A program made the position numbers and the translations under genes. From the NCBI GenBank assembly GCA_019115525.1, contig DXDJ01000024.1, positions 1-34,995 of the forward strand: a DNA stretch of 34,995 nucleotides, read 5' to 3'. The DNA is from Candidatus Helicobacter avistercoris (GTDB lineage: Bacteria; Campylobacterota; Campylobacteria; Campylobacterales; Helicobacteraceae). The notes beneath the pieces were generated by a model. The model was not told where the DNA came from, did no database searches, and worked only from the letters and a program-made list of their open reading frames with translations. Below are positions 8,794 through 33,867 of the stretch, piece by piece. Position 1 is the first letter of the stretch; each line of letters begins with the position of its first letter.

Positions 8794-8815
8794 TTTTAAA
8801 AATAAAGGAGTGAAA

Positions 8816-10822
8816 ATGAATTTTTATTTTAGCAATGGAAATGAATTCAAAAATATCAAATCTAACGAAAAGAGTTTGGAAAAAGAATTTTCAATCTTTT
8901 TAGATGCAAAACAAATAAGAAGCAAGGATATATATATTAGCACTACAAAAAAGGTACTTCCAGAGTGTCAAAAAAGAGGGATTTTATCGGTAGACAGTGC
9001 CAATCTGGATATTTTTTCACTCACAGATATTGAAGTTATTAAAAATATATGCAACGAGCTTCGAAAGGGTATTCTAGTAGATTTGGACAAAAAATCAAAG
9101 GGTGCTCCACACGCCTGTCTTAATTCAAACTATATTGATTTTTTGACCTATTATCATGCCTATATGTCATATAGAGAAAATCTAAAGTTTGAAGAAAAAT
9201 CCCTTCCGACAACAGGAAACGAAAGTTTTTTTAAAGTTTTTTATAAAGAAAATTGTTCAATACAAGTACAAGCAGTCAATAGCACCAACTATCGTTCATA
9301 TAGCTTAGATCGTTTTTTAAACTATTGTGTTAATCCAAAAAATGAGAGTGGAAGTAGTTATGCTCCAATTCTATTTGATGACATACTTCAACATTCAAAA
9401 ATTATAATCAAAACACAAGCAAAAGACTTAAATAAAAATATAGGAGAAAAACAAATGAGCAATCAAGAAATAAAAAACCAACCTCTTAATCAAATTCTCT
9501 ATGGTTCCCCAGGTACAGGGAAAACTTATAATACGATTGATAGAGCATTGTGTATTCTAGGGTTTGGAGTTATTGTAGATCAAAAATGTATACTTGAGTA
9601 TGAAAAAATTAAAGATGAGCTTGCATATCTTGAAATTAACTTCAATTTCAAAAATGATCGCTCTTGTGCTAAAGCATTATTTGATCACTATTGCAAAGAA
9701 GAATATATTGAGTTTGTGACTTTTCACCAAAGTTATGGACATGAAGAGTTTGTAGAAGGAATCAAACCTATTGAAAAAGACAATGCTGTCATATATAGAA
9801 CACAAGATGGAATTTTTAAAAAAATTTCACTTCGTGCAAATAGAGAAAAAGATTTTGAATCATTTTTTAAATATTTCACAAAAAAGCAAAGAACATTAAG
9901 AGGTAAAGCAGGTACTCCATTGTCTTTTGATAAAAATAGTCGAGGAACATTGACTGTCCACTTTACAAATGGAGAAAAAAATTTGTCCATTGACTACAAT
10001 AAGGTAGTCACGCTTTTCAACCATTTTAAAGATAAAAGAAATGATTTTTATGCAATGAAAAATATTGCCACAGAAATGGAAAAAATTTTGGATATTAAAA
10101 ATATACCACCGACAGCATATTGGACTATTATTGATTTCTATTTCAAAGAGTATCTAAAACCCTACATCCTCATCATTGATGAAATCAATCGAGGAAATAT
10201 CAGCAAGATTTTTGGGGAACTTATTACCCTCATTGAGCCAAGCAAAAGAATTGGAGCAGAAGAGGAGCTAAGAGTAACTCTACCATATAGCCAAACATCT
10301 TTTGGTGTGCCAAATAATCTCTATATCATCGGAACGATGAATACTGCAGATAGAAGCATTACTAGCCTTGATACAGCTCTTAGAAGAAGATTTGAGTTTG
10401 TTGAGATGATGCCTGATGCTACAAAACTTGAAGGCAAAGTAATTGAAGGAATTAATCTCCAAAAAATGCTTACAGCAATCAATGAGAGAATTGAATTCCT
10501 CTATGATAGAGAAAAAACAATCGGACATGCATATTTGCTTGATATCAAAAATCTTGATGACCTCAAAGAGGCATTCCAAAATAAAATCATTCCTTTGCTC
10601 CAAGAGTATTTTTACAGAAACTATACCTTGATTCAAGCAGTTCTCAACGACAATGGGATGATAAAAGAAATTGAAGATTCCAAAAAAACAAGCATCATCA
10701 ATTGCAAGGGATTTAAGAAACTTGAAAATATTGATTTTGAAAGTAAAACAATCTACTCAATCTCCGATGATGAAAACCTTTGGGATGATCCACAGACTTA
10801 TATCAACATCTATGAGGGGTAA
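8816..10822 (+). CDS. mcrB: McrB-like AAA+ GTPase of a modification-dependent restriction system
   Basis: McrB proteins bind modified DNA and use GTP-driven translocation to activate the McrC nuclease. In this 668-residue protein the motor domain has Walker A GSPGTGKT (230-237), Walker B IIDEINRGN (Asp455-Glu456), the McrB-specific MNTADR (508-513) that replaces the usual GTPase base-recognition motif, and an arginine cluster RRR (523-525). Residues 1-213 should be the DNA-recognition domain, but I recognise no known fold in them. I chose the ATG at 8816 because AAAGGAG overlaps the GTG at 8810. The stop overlaps the McrC-like gene. The mcrB label is by class; the target modification is unknown. 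Confidence 0.88.
   Translation: MNFYFSNGNEFKNIKSNEKSLEKEFSIFLDAKQIRSKDIYISTTKKVLPECQKRGILSVDSANLDIFSLTDIEVIKNICNELRKGILVDLDKKSKGAPHACLNSNYIDFLTYYHAYMSYRENLKFEEKSLPTTGNESFFKVFYKENCSIQVQAVNSTNYRSYSLDRFLNYCVNPKNESGSSYAPILFDDILQHSKIIIKTQAKDLNKNIGEKQMSNQEIKNQPLNQILYGSPGTGKTYNTIDRALCILGFGVIVDQKCILEYEKIKDELAYLEINFNFKNDRSCAKALFDHYCKEEYIEFVTFHQSYGHEEFVEGIKPIEKDNAVIYRTQDGIFKKISLRANREKDFESFFKYFTKKQRTLRGKAGTPLSFDKNSRGTLTVHFTNGEKNLSIDYNKVVTLFNHFKDKRNDFYAMKNIATEMEKILDIKNIPPTAYWTIIDFYFKEYLKPYILIIDEINRGNISKIFGELITLIEPSKRIGAEEELRVTLPYSQTSFGVPNNLYIIGTMNTADRSITSLDTALRRRFEFVEMMPDATKLEGKVIEGINLQKMLTAINERIEFLYDREKTIGHAYLLDIKNLDDLKEAFQNKIIPLLQEYFYRNYTLIQAVLNDNGMIKEIEDSKKTSIINCKGFKKLENIDFESKTIYSISDDENLWDDPQTYINIYEG
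9442..9457 (+). promoter_or_regulatory. Internal ribosome-binding site and in-frame ATG in the McrB-like gene
   Basis: AGGAG at 9442-9446 stands 8 bases before an in-frame ATG at 9455 (residue 214), just 16 residues before Walker A. E. coli McrB is known to make a short form lacking the DNA-binding domain from an internal start. The placement here would give the same kind of product of about 455 residues. This is inference from position only. Confidence 0.5.
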
Positions 10823-10827
10823 TGCCA

Positions 10828-12387
10828 ATGAAGCCCCTCATCTACACAATCATTGAATATCAGTCCTTTGGGGCTGATGAGATTGTCAAAACTTGGGAAT
10901 CTCAAGACAAGCTCTTACAATCCGAGCAAACACCTCAAAAAGAAAAAGAGGAGAGAAAAAAACTTCTTGCTACCAAAGCAGAAAAGTTTTTCCAAACCCT
11001 AGAGAAGTTTCAAAAAAGCACAGAGCAAAACGATAAATTCCTCAAACACTGCAATGCAACCAAACTCAAAGCCCAAAACTATGTAGGGATCATCCAAACC
11101 CCTTATGGCACATTAGAGATTTTGCCAAAGTGTTTTAGAGGGGATGCTCTCCAAGAACAAGAGATGAGAAAACCAACACAAGAAGACAAACAAAAACACA
11201 AAAAAGAATTAACAGAATTTTATAATATTGAGAATTTTCAACAGCAGTTTGATTCAAATGACAAACAAAATCAACAAAACAAAGAACAAAAAACCATAAT
11301 AGAATCTTTTAGACTTATTGACACCCCTCAAAAATCCGCACAAAGATTCCTTATCCATTGCCTCACATCACTCAAAGACACGCCATTCAAACAAAGCCAA
11401 ATCTCTTCCATCGACACTTGCAACACCCCTTTGCTTGATGTGTTTATGCAGATGTTTTGCCAAGAGCTTTTAGAGATTTGCAAAAAGGGGATTCGCCACG
11501 ACTATGGCGCTATCGAGGAGAATAGAGCTTATCTCAAAGGCAAACTTCTCTTTAGCGGACAAATCCGACACAATCTCGTGCATAAAGAACGCTTCTATAC
11601 AAGCAGTGATGAATACATCACCGACATTGCAAGCAATCGCCTCATCAAATCCACTTTGGAACTTATCCACTCCAAAGCCACATCTCACGCCACTCTTACG
11701 CTTATCAATCAATGCCTTGAGGTTTTTGAAGAGATTCCAAGCAGTGGCAATATAGAGGGGGATTTCCTCTCTTGCACGAGCTCAAGGCACTTTAGCTACT
11801 ATGACAACCTTTTGGAGTGGTGCAAACTTTTCTTGCAAGGTAATAGTTTTTCAGCCTATAGTGGAGAGAGCAAGGCTTATGCCCTCCTCTTCCCTATGGA
11901 AAAGCTCTTTGAATCCTATGTAGCCCACATGCTCAAAAAAAGCAATCCAAACGCAACCATCCATGCCCAAAACTCAAGCCAACATCTTCTCTATACCAAA
12001 AATAACTCACCTCTCTTTAAACTCAAACCTGATTTGCTTTTTGAGATAAAGGAAAAAGAAGGAAAAGAAAAAAGAAAAATCGTCGCCGATACCAAATGGA
12101 AGCCCCTCAAAAATGCTGAGGACAAAAAGCACGGGATCGCCCAAAGTGATCTCTATCAAGTCTTTGCTTACGCTCATTATCATGAGGCTTCTGAAGTTTG
12201 GCTCATTTATCCCAAACTTTACGAGCAAAACGACAGAGAAGAAGGAGAGATTAAAAAGATTATTGATAATCTAAAAGAATGGAATGCACAAGAACACTAT
12301 TATTGCCACCCTTGTGCTTTTAAAGAAACACTAAAACATCACAAAATAGAGCTAAAAATCTTTTTTGCCCCTCTAGCCTTCCACTAG
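10828..12387 (+). CDS. mcrC: McrC-like PD-(D/E)XK nuclease subunit
   Basis: McrC is the cutting subunit that docks on the McrB ring. The 519-residue protein has the family segment YVGIIQTPYGTLEILPK near residues 88-104. A C-terminal nuclease core is visible as KPDLLF (Asp402) and VADTKWK (Asp421-x-Lys423), followed by QVFAYAHYH. A Lys/Gln-rich stretch (about 108-155) looks like a linker. A first ATG at 10822 overlaps the upstream stop as TAATG. The second, two codons on, is 8 bases behind GAGGGG and is preferred. Translation is coupled to the McrB-like gene. The mcrC label is by class. Confidence 0.86.
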   Translation: MKPLIYTIIEYQSFGADEIVKTWESQDKLLQSEQTPQKEKEERKKLLATKAEKFFQTLEKFQKSTEQNDKFLKHCNATKLKAQNYVGIIQTPYGTLEILPKCFRGDALQEQEMRKPTQEDKQKHKKELTEFYNIENFQQQFDSNDKQNQQNKEQKTIIESFRLIDTPQKSAQRFLIHCLTSLKDTPFKQSQISSIDTCNTPLLDVFMQMFCQELLEICKKGIRHDYGAIEENRAYLKGKLLFSGQIRHNLVHKERFYTSSDEYITDIASNRLIKSTLELIHSKATSHATLTLINQCLEVFEEIPSSGNIEGDFLSCTSSRHFSYYDNLLEWCKLFLQGNSFSAYSGESKAYALLFPMEKLFESYVAHMLKKSNPNATIHAQNSSQHLLYTKNNSPLFKLKPDLLFEIKEKEGKEKRKIVADTKWKPLKNAEDKKHGIAQSDLYQVFAYAHYHEASEVWLIYPKLYEQNDREEGEIKKIIDNLKEWNAQEHYYCHPCAFKETLKHHKIELKIFFAPLAFH

Positions 12388-30384: not shown

Positions 30385-31613
30385 TGGATTTTAAAGCAAT
30401 CAAACTTGCCCAATACACCCTAGCCCAGACATCCCACGCCCTCAAAGTCCAAGTCCTCAATGCAATGGCTAAAAATCTTTTAGCTCATAGTGCAAAGATA
30501 CTTCAAGCCAATGCTATCGATCTTGCTAATGCGACACATCTAAACTCCGCAATGAGAGAGCGACTAGCTCTGAGTGAAAGCAAAATAGAAGCTATGGCAA
30601 AGAGCATAAAAGAGATCGCCTCACTTCCCAATCCCTTAGGGCAAACACTTAAAGGTTGGCAAACTGAAAGTGGGCTAGATATCCAAAAAGTTAGTGTGCC
30701 CATAGGAGTAATAGGGATCATCTACGAATCTCGCCCCAATGTAACAAGTGATAGTGCAAGTCTGTGTTTTAAGAGTGGAAATGTTTGTATCCTCAAAGGG
30801 GGTAAAGAAGCCAAAGAGAGCAACACCCTCATTGCTAAGATTTTGCAAAATACCCTAGAGGATTTCTCACTTCCCAAAGAATACATTAGCACGCTTGAAG
30901 ACTATTCAAGAGAGGGGGTGCTTGAGTTTATCAAACAAGATCAATACATCGATCTTCTTATCCCCAGAGGGGGTGAGGGACTGATCTCTTTTGTAAGTCA
31001 AAATGCCACAATCCCAGTGCTCAAACACGACAAAGGCGTATGTCATCTCTATATCCATAAAGATAGCAAAATACAAGAAGCCATAAAAATAGTCATCAAT
31101 GCCAAAACCCAACGCCCCTCTACTTGCAACTCGATTGAAACTTTGCTTATCCATCAAGAGATTGCTCCAAGCCTTTTGCCCCCACTTTATCTTGCCCTCA
31201 AAGAAAAGGGGGTAGAGCTTAAGGTAAGTGCTGAAGTTCAAGACTTCATCCCTGAGAAACTACTAAATCTGCAAGAAGAGGATTTTCACAAAGAATATGG
31301 AGAAAAAATCCTAAACATCACGCTTGTCAAAGACTTACAAACCGCTGTTGATCACATCAATACCTATGGCTCCAAACACTCAGAATCTATCCTCACGCAA
31401 GATATTTCTAGTGCTGAGAAATTTCTAAATGAAGTAGATGCCTCTTGTGTATATCTCAATGCTTCTACTCGCCTTAGTGATGGAGGAGAGTTTGGGTTTG
31501 GGGCGGAGATTGGGATCTCTACAAACAAACTTCATGCCAGAGGGCCAGTGGGACTTGAGGGGCTTGTAACTTACAAATACAAGATTTATGGAGATTGGCA
31601 AGTTAGGGGATAG
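30384..31613 (+). CDS. proA: Gamma-glutamyl phosphate reductase
   Basis: ProA reduces gamma-glutamyl phosphate with NADPH to glutamate semialdehyde in proline synthesis. The 409-residue aldehyde-dehydrogenase-fold protein has the catalytic Cys248 in QRPSTCNSIETLL, plus PIGVIGIIYESRPNVTSD, LKGGKEAKESN and NASTRLSDGGEFGFGAEIGIST. It is coupled to ispG by a one-base overlap. No proB is seen next to it. Confidence 0.96.
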   Translation: MDFKAIKLAQYTLAQTSHALKVQVLNAMAKNLLAHSAKILQANAIDLANATHLNSAMRERLALSESKIEAMAKSIKEIASLPNPLGQTLKGWQTESGLDIQKVSVPIGVIGIIYESRPNVTSDSASLCFKSGNVCILKGGKEAKESNTLIAKILQNTLEDFSLPKEYISTLEDYSREGVLEFIKQDQYIDLLIPRGGEGLISFVSQNATIPVLKHDKGVCHLYIHKDSKIQEAIKIVINAKTQRPSTCNSIETLLIHQEIAPSLLPPLYLALKEKGVELKVSAEVQDFIPEKLLNLQEEDFHKEYGEKILNITLVKDLQTAVDHINTYGSKHSESILTQDISSAEKFLNEVDASCVYLNASTRLSDGGEFGFGAEIGISTNKLHARGPVGLEGLVTYKYKIYGDWQVRG

Positions 31614-31614
31614 A

Positions 31615-33051
31615 GTGGAAAAAATTGAGCTTAAAGAAACTCAAGCAGTTGAGTTCAAACAATCTTGGAGGGATGAATGGCTTAAGTCATTGAGTGCTTT
31701 TTGCAATACACAAGGAGGGATTCTTTATGTAGGGGTTGATGATCATGGAGAGATCATTGGAATTAAAAACTCCAAAAAACTTCTTGAAGATATTCCCAAT
31801 AAGCTCAAAGAAATCTTGGGGATTACTGCTTCAATTACCCTTCACACGCATCAAGAAAATGAATATCTAATGATTCAAGTTGAAAAATATCCATATCCTA
31901 TTAGCTACAAAGGCTCATATTATCAAAGGAGCGGGAGTGTAACACAAGAACTCAAAGGAGCTAGTCTAGATCACTTTCTTTTAACTCGTCAAGGAAGAAG
32001 ATGGGATGGACTTCCTTTGCCACTCTTTGGTGAAGAAGATATCGATCCTCTTGCACTCCGTCTATTTTCGCAAAAGGCTCAGAGTAAAAAGCGGATTGAT
32101 GAAGATTTTCTCCATGCAGATGTAAATACTCTAATCCAAAAACTTCACCTCAAGGAAGGGGAGTATTATAAAATTGCAACAGCGCTGCTTTTTGGTCACA
32201 ATCCTCAAAATTATGTTATAGGCAGTTGTATTAAAATCGGTTATTTTGCCTCAAATACAGATCTGCTCTATCAAGATGTTATAGAGGGCAATCTTTTTTC
32301 TCAAGTAGATAAAACCATAGAACTTGTTTTTAGCAAATATCTCAAAGCATGGATAAGCTATGAGGGGATTCAAAGAGTTGAAACTTTTCCACTCTCACAA
32401 ATTGCTTTTAGAGAAGCACTAATCAACGCCGTTGTTCATAAGGATTATGCAAGAGGAAGTGCGATACAAATTAGTATTTATGAAGATAAATTACTCTTAT
32501 GGAATGCTGGAGATTTGCCACTTCATTGGGATATTCAAACCCTTCTCTCCAAACATTCCTCCGAACCCCATAATCCAAGTATCGCATACCCTTTCTTTTT
32601 GGCAGGTTACATTGAATCTTGGGGGAGAGGAATTGAAAAAATTATTGAAGAATCAAAACATTACAATGGAATCATCCCCACTTTCAAAATCCAAAATGGA
32701 TTTTGGATTGAATTTGCATTTCCAAAAAATACAAAAAGAAAAATAGGTAATAAGTTGGGTAATAAGTTGGGTAATAAGTTGGGTAATAAGTTGGGTAATC
32801 AACCCTCAAAAAACTCCACAAACAAGGAAGATAACAAAGATATCAACACCCTCACCTCCAACCAAAAAACAATCCTTAGACTTTTGGAAAAAAACCCTAC
32901 ATACTCTACTGCCAAAATCGCAGATAAACTTCAAATCACACAAACAGCCATAGAAAAAAATATCAAAATCCTCAAAACTCTAGGATTGCTTGAACGCATT
33001 GGCACTCCTAGAAAAGGATATTGGCAAGTCAAAAAATATGCCAAACCTTGA
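31615..33051 (+). CDS. AlbA_2/GHKL-type ATP-binding regulator (COG2865)
   Basis: This 478-residue protein has an N-terminal AlbA_2 (Schlafen-like) domain (ETQAVEFKQSW, LSAFCNTQGGILYVGVDDHGEIIGI), a GHKL-type ATPase-like segment (FREALINAVVHKDYARG, DKLLLWNAGDLP, ESWGRGIEKII), four GNKL repeats at residues 378-393, and a C-terminal winged helix (KNPTYSTAKIADKLQITQTAIEKNI). Such proteins are putative transcription regulators of unknown target. I chose the GTG at 31615 because AGGGG is 6 bases upstream and the proA stop is just before it. An ATG at 31588 inside proA is also open but has no ribosome-binding site. Confidence 0.82.
   Translation: MEKIELKETQAVEFKQSWRDEWLKSLSAFCNTQGGILYVGVDDHGEIIGIKNSKKLLEDIPNKLKEILGITASITLHTHQENEYLMIQVEKYPYPISYKGSYYQRSGSVTQELKGASLDHFLLTRQGRRWDGLPLPLFGEEDIDPLALRLFSQKAQSKKRIDEDFLHADVNTLIQKLHLKEGEYYKIATALLFGHNPQNYVIGSCIKIGYFASNTDLLYQDVIEGNLFSQVDKTIELVFSKYLKAWISYEGIQRVETFPLSQIAFREALINAVVHKDYARGSAIQISIYEDKLLLWNAGDLPLHWDIQTLLSKHSSEPHNPSIAYPFFLAGYIESWGRGIEKIIEESKHYNGIIPTFKIQNGFWIEFAFPKNTKRKIGNKLGNKLGNKLGNKLGNQPSKNSTNKEDNKDINTLTSNQKTILRLLEKNPTYSTAKIADKLQITQTAIEKNIKILKTLGLLERIGTPRKGYWQVKKYAKP
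32746..32799 (+). repeat. 12-bp in-frame tandem repeat, four copies plus half a copy
   Basis: GGTAATAAGTTG occurs four times without a change at 32746-32793, then GGTAAT begins a fifth copy. Each unit encodes Gly-Asn-Lys-Leu in the regulator gene. Because 12 is a multiple of 3, copy-number changes would lengthen or shorten a linker between the ATPase-like domain and the winged helix without breaking the frame. Confidence 0.95.
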
Positions 33052-33088
33052 TCTGCTCCTGCTAAATCTCTTTGAAAAATATCTATTT

Positions 33089-33355
33089 TTACTCCTTATA
33101 TTTTGATTTTTGTAGATAAAGAAAAATTAAAAATGCCAAAGAAAGGGCAATGATTTCAAAAGTCAAGATTGAAGATACTCCAAAATGACGAATACAAAAA
33201 CCACCAAAATTATCTCGCAAATGCACCAAGTCCAAAATTGACAAAAATAAATAGAAAAAAGTATCAAAGGTTATGAACTGCGCTTCTCCCTTTCTTTGGA
33301 TTAGGAGTGAAAATGCCTTTGGCGGAGTGCCTTCTACTCTAAAGGTTGCTCTACG
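33089..33355 (-). pseudogene. 88-codon stop-free frame with two hydrophobic segments, possible gene remnant
   Basis: Reading on after the original cupin stop, the same minus-strand frame stays open for 88 codons without an ATG. It encodes VEGTPPKAFSLLIQRKGEAQ, then two hydrophobic stretches (ITFDTFFYLFLSILDL and SSILTFEIIALSLAFLIFLYL) and a basic tail (QKSKYKE). TTG and GTG codons occur inside, but no good ribosome-binding site is seen. It may be the tail of a lost membrane-protein gene. T-rich strands often look hydrophobic by chance, so this is weak. The rest of 33052-33366 holds nothing else I can support. Confidence 0.3.
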
Positions 33356-33693
33356 CTAAATTTCTGTTAGGGTGATATGCACCCCTCCCTTTTCTGTGCT
33401 TCCATGCCAATGCTTAAGATTGGGAGGACACGAGATAATGTAAGGATTCTTGTCTCTTCTCCCTCTGTTTGAGTGATGATTTCACCCTCCAAAACAATCA
33501 AAGTCTGCCCTGCGGGGTGAGAATGCCATGCCGTTTTTGCAAAAGGCTTAAATCTCACAAGCCCTCCTCCCATAGCTCTCCAAGAATTATCTTCAAACAT
33601 TAAAGTCACCTTCACTCCTCCGCTAAACATCTCGTCAAAACCATCAGAGACCTTTTGCTCCTGAAGTGTAGTGTATTGCTGAATTTTTTGCAC
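33356..33693 (-). pseudogene. Cupin-domain gene broken by a frameshift
   Basis: From a GTG at 33693 (AGGAG 5 bases upstream) the frame encodes a small cupin like those labelled mandelonitrile-lyase-like: MFSGGVKVTLMF, then cupin motif 1 FKPFAKTAWHSHPAGQTLIVLEGE. After GEETRILT (near 33440) it turns into LSRVLPILSIGM and stops at 33367. In the frame shifted by -1, the sequence continues as IISCPPNLKHWHGSTEKGG and VHITLTEI, stopping at 33356, which is exactly the expected cupin motif 2 and C-terminus. About three residues around the expected Gly-Asp are also missing, pointing to a small deletion. The truncated product lacks the second metal-binding motif. Confidence 0.82.
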
Positions 33694-33720
33694 TTCTTCT
33701 CCTGTCGATAAATTTGAGAC

Positions 33721-33751
33721 ATTATAAAACCTGAGAGCTACTCTAAGTCAA
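33721..33751 (-). promoter_or_regulatory. Probable promoter of the cupin gene
   Basis: The minus strand has TTGACT (33746-33751), 19 bases, and TATAAT (33721-33726). The spacing is 2 bases longer than ideal. The start would fall near 33714, about 21 bases before the GTG. So the broken gene may still be transcribed. Confidence 0.55.
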
Positions 33752-33851
33752 GAGCAAAAAAGTAAAAAATCCAAAGAATCAAGAGAATGATTTTTGCTTG
33801 TATTCTCTTATCGCTCCAGAAGCTCTGTGTTGATGGAGTGTGTATGAAAAG

Positions 33852-33867
33852 TGGAATTATATTTGCT
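33852..33867 (+). promoter_or_regulatory. Sigma-54 (RpoN) promoter of the flgBC-fliE operon
   Basis: TGGAATTATATTTGCT has GG at 33853-33854 and GC at 33865-33866, exactly 10 bases apart, with TTGCT matching the -12 element. The start would be near 33878, about 22 bases before flgB. Rod genes are in the RpoN class in Helicobacter. Apart from this site and the cupin promoter, the stretch 33752-33851 has an 8-bp inverted repeat (33781-33788 with 33802-33809) of unknown role. Confidence 0.82.

Follow-up and report, generated by a model that had tools for sequence, protein, structure and literature searches.

Gene content between proA and flgB

The window, the whole stretch of 34,995 nucleotides analysed here (positions 1 to 34,995 of contig DXDJ01000024.1, Candidatus Helicobacter avistercoris, assembly GCA_019115525.1), holds between proA and flgB an extra segment of about 2.2 kb, whose content is a gene for a Schlafen/AlbA_2-HATPase-HTH protein and, on the opposite strand, the remnant of a cupin gene. 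The features of this region are as follows.

31588..33051, plus strand: Schlafen/AlbA_2 - HATPase_c_4 - HTH protein, neighbour of the cupin in the same extra segment
31607..33851, no strand assigned: segment absent from the same-genus genome G003, about 2.2 kb here and about 0.1 kb there
33052..33355, minus strand: region expected to hold the missing C-terminal segment of the cupin, with no profile match in any frame
33356..33442, minus strand: frame B remnant, YIISCPPNLKHWHG...HITLTEI, ending at the TAG at 33358-33356, delimited by profile matches
33367..33693, minus strand: 108-aa cupin ORF (frame A), with a GTG start and AGGAG ahead of it
33435..33447, minus strand: frame break with a net loss of 10 nt, from comparison with relatives
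33699..33703, minus strand: AGGAG ribosome-binding site, 5 nt upstream of the GTG, read directly
33721..33726, minus strand: TATAAT, a perfect -10 hexamer, read directly
33746..33751, minus strand: TTGACT, a -35-like hexamer with a 19-nt spacer to the -10, read directly

Residues 1 to about 84 of the 108-aa ORF represent the N-terminal two thirds of a cupin, including AWHSHPAGQ, and the remainder is out-of-frame sequence. The first-pass annotation had regarded both promoter and ribosome-binding site as intact, which holds for the ribosome-binding site and the -10 box but less well for the promoter as a whole, whose -35/-10 spacing is 19 nt; a consensus scan with a spacer limit of 18 nt listed no promoter for the cupin.

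In G003, gcpE and proA adjoin as they do in the window, and flgB follows only 165 bp after proA. Nucleotide similarity between the two genomes stops at 31606, within proA, and restarts at 33852, before flgB. The intact cupin of G003 lies on a different contig and is 46% identical to the window copy; among the six genomes of the genus, these two are the only ones with a cupin match. For the Schlafen gene, no full-length homologue was found in the five genomes other than the window's own. This arrangement is most simply read as an insertion in the lineage of the window, with the proA-flgB adjacency taken from one same-genus genome, G003, although the segment may instead have been lost there.

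The Schlafen/AlbA_2 gene contains a perfect 12-bp tandem repeat, GGTAATAAGTTG, present in 4.5 copies at 32746-32799 and coding for GNKL repeats, whose copy number could vary without affecting the frame. Elsewhere in the window, two adjoining genes at 8810-12387 were judged by eye to be a putative McrB/McrC-type restriction pair.

A cupin broken ahead of its second metal motif

The 108-aa ORF matched Cupin_2 with an E value of 8.7e-6, under the curated cut-off, and the (R)-mandelonitrile lyase model NF049940 with an E value of 3.6e-18 (profile positions 5-78 of 130), its 65.6 bits being below the curated cut-off of 140 bits. The nearest PDB sequences are the cupins 8OZ8, 4BIF, 4UXA and TM1010 2F4P (E about 1e-9). 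The NF049940 cut-off is passed in only 5 of the family's 121 genomes, so that on these scores the name lyase should be withheld from most intact relatives as well.

In cupins of this group, such as the 4BIF/4UXA enzyme, the metal ligands are the two His and the Gln of motif 1 (His-x-His-xxx-Gln) together with one His from motif 2. The window copy resembles the NF049940 cupins over its N-terminal two thirds, where AWHSHPAGQ of frame A (His-x-His-xxx-Gln) aligns with AWHTHPLGQ of 8OZ8 and 4BIF, with KHWHG and HITLT coming next in frame B. It differs from them in lacking its C-terminus and in having the second motif, KHWHG, only in frame B, with the first three metal ligands in frame A and the fourth, the His of KHWHG, in the other frame.

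A frameshifted cupin with its motif 2 displaced into another frame was what the first-pass annotation had proposed, and the profile searches confirm it, since one cupin profile is matched collinearly by two frames of the minus strand, frame A to about 33440 and then frame B to 33359. Against an unfiltered profile built from relatives, frame A (33693-33370) matched positions 5-95 (E = 2.6e-29) and frame B (ORF 33481-33359) positions 93-120 (E = 5.4e-7), with 28 fragments tested and E stated for 1000, and no other frame in 33000-33760 scored. A second profile, made of 36 intact copies nearly all from the same bacterial family, gave positions 7-95 for frame A (E = 3.5e-29) and 97-124 for frame B (E = 4.4e-9). 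The switch between the frames falls near 33441-33447, inside the interval of about 33435-33447 in which it had been placed.

Alignment to intact relatives, which had been suggested as a check, likewise bears out a net loss of 3n+1 bases. From the conserved Gly that follows the first motif (the G of eGEI) to the Cys of CPP, the distance is 22 residues, or 66 nt, in all 34 relatives in which it was measurable, versus 56 nt in the window copy (33486 to 33430), which amounts to a net loss of 10 nt (3x3+1). The residues gone at the break are those of the conserved KKG(D) turn ahead of the second metal motif. Because the break site has no repeat or homopolymer, slippage is not an obvious cause.

The missing C-terminus and the reading as a pseudogene

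The TAG at 33356 had been taken for the expected C-terminus, a view that the comparison with relatives contradicts: these run on for about 15-33 residues past HIAL (family consensus GEKDGKNVTWLEKVSDEEY); frame B, by contrast, comes to an early end after HITLTEI. The segment that follows HIAL in relatives (NVxWLExVSDEEY) is absent from all minus-strand frames of 33000-33760, nothing similar to the missing tail was found downstream in any frame, and the 51-aa ORF located there (33089-33244) showed no meaningful Pfam family. Since a point mutation to a stop codon would leave a recognisable tail, a rearrangement at the 3' end appears more likely than a simple stop mutation.

Intact homologues exist (36 in the second profile), and relative to them the window copy has two disabling lesions, both apparent from its sequence; the loss of cupin function and the acquisition of the gene are inferred. 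It is very probable that this cupin is a pseudogene of the (R)-mandelonitrile-lyase-like group, probably acquired with its Schlafen/AlbA_2 neighbour and disabled by a 10-base deletion and a separate 3' event. A small metal-binding cupin would have arrived between proA and flgB together with the adjoining gene; by the net 10-base deletion it would have lost the turn that precedes metal motif 2, which thereby shifted into another frame, and the separate event at the 3' end would have cost it the final part of the barrel. If translated, the 108-aa product would keep His-x-His-xxx-Gln but, devoid of the fourth ligand and the final strands, would not be expected to adopt the fold of an active enzyme. 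No second copy of the cupin region was found elsewhere in the same genome. For annotation purposes, the 108-aa ORF is to be labelled a pseudogene and not a working cupin.

An assembly or sequencing error that conceals an intact gene would be in keeping with a draft genome of 80 contigs and with the undamaged -10 box and ribosome-binding site, but we consider it unlikely: the loss amounts to about 10 bases, lies outside any homopolymer and is accompanied by the missing C-terminus, so that two independent errors would be needed, and a simple base-call error is itself unlikely. Even less credible is the idea that the short product serves some non-enzymatic function, or that the two frames are joined by programmed frameshifting. 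The ORF is indeed open and is preceded by a good ribosome-binding site and a -10 box; however, inspection of the junction revealed no slippery heptamer, a joined product would still be missing the final 15-33 residues as well as the KKG turn, and the breaks of relatives fall at other sites. A phase-variable gene caught in its off state might be suspected from two relatives, G022 and G030, whose frames are broken within homopolymer runs towards the C-terminus, but the window break has no repeat and consists of a net 10-base loss, which makes this the most improbable of the explanations considered.

With regard to the age of the pseudogene, the window copy and L003, its nearest intact relative, are identical at 41/66 positions (62%) ahead of the break and at 17/26 (65%) beyond it, and the mean identities over the 36 copies are 48% and 53%, respectively. 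Divergence is thus no faster beyond the break than ahead of it, and the frameshift is probably young; this equal identity on both sides, together with the intact ribosome-binding site and -10 box, supports the recent loss suggested by the first-pass annotation. A wider search of the order (399 genomes) yielded nothing nearer than the copy of about 61% identity in G019, and a search of named genomes for close relatives returned distant taxa only (best identity 49-53%). A plasmid source was considered and rejected, all plasmid matches being below 60% identity. Among the titles and abstracts returned for Helicobacter cupin pseudogenes, none concerns this gene. We regard it as a real but ordinary decayed gene, probably of horizontal origin.

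Broken cupins across the family

An NF049940 match occurs in 60 of the 121 family genomes, and the gene family disrupted in the window is also broken in G022, G030, G092, G096, G006, G086 and G010. These relatives carry stops (G092, the second copy of G096, G006 and G086), a truncation (G010) or frame breaks (L138 of G022 and L139 of G030), and each breaks at its own profile position, except for the two frame breaks, both of which lie at about profile position 127 in homopolymers (G5 and A8), a C-terminal site that is possibly prone to slippage. Broken cupins amount to about 7-8 of 61 matched copies, compared with about 3 of about 104 full-length catalase genes from the same genomes (split or interrupted in G023, G062 and G088), a rough control whose contrast is only a lead, as catalase is under stronger selection and some broken cases may be assembly errors. 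One possibility, which we consider less likely than not, is that the cupin has been repeatedly acquired and lost across this Helicobacter-like family, which could make broken copies unusually common; if true, this would point to a selective benefit that fluctuates. Present in only some genomes and broken repeatedly, the gene provides a modest clue to how genes are gained and lost in host-associated bacteria.

Catalase (PF00199) itself has no match in the window's own genome, versus 108 of the 121 family genomes with one. In genus g7 (L008 and L109-L113), the cupin makes up the N-terminal portion of an approximately 400-aa protein, whose C-terminal extension is a putative carboxymuconolactone decarboxylase domain.
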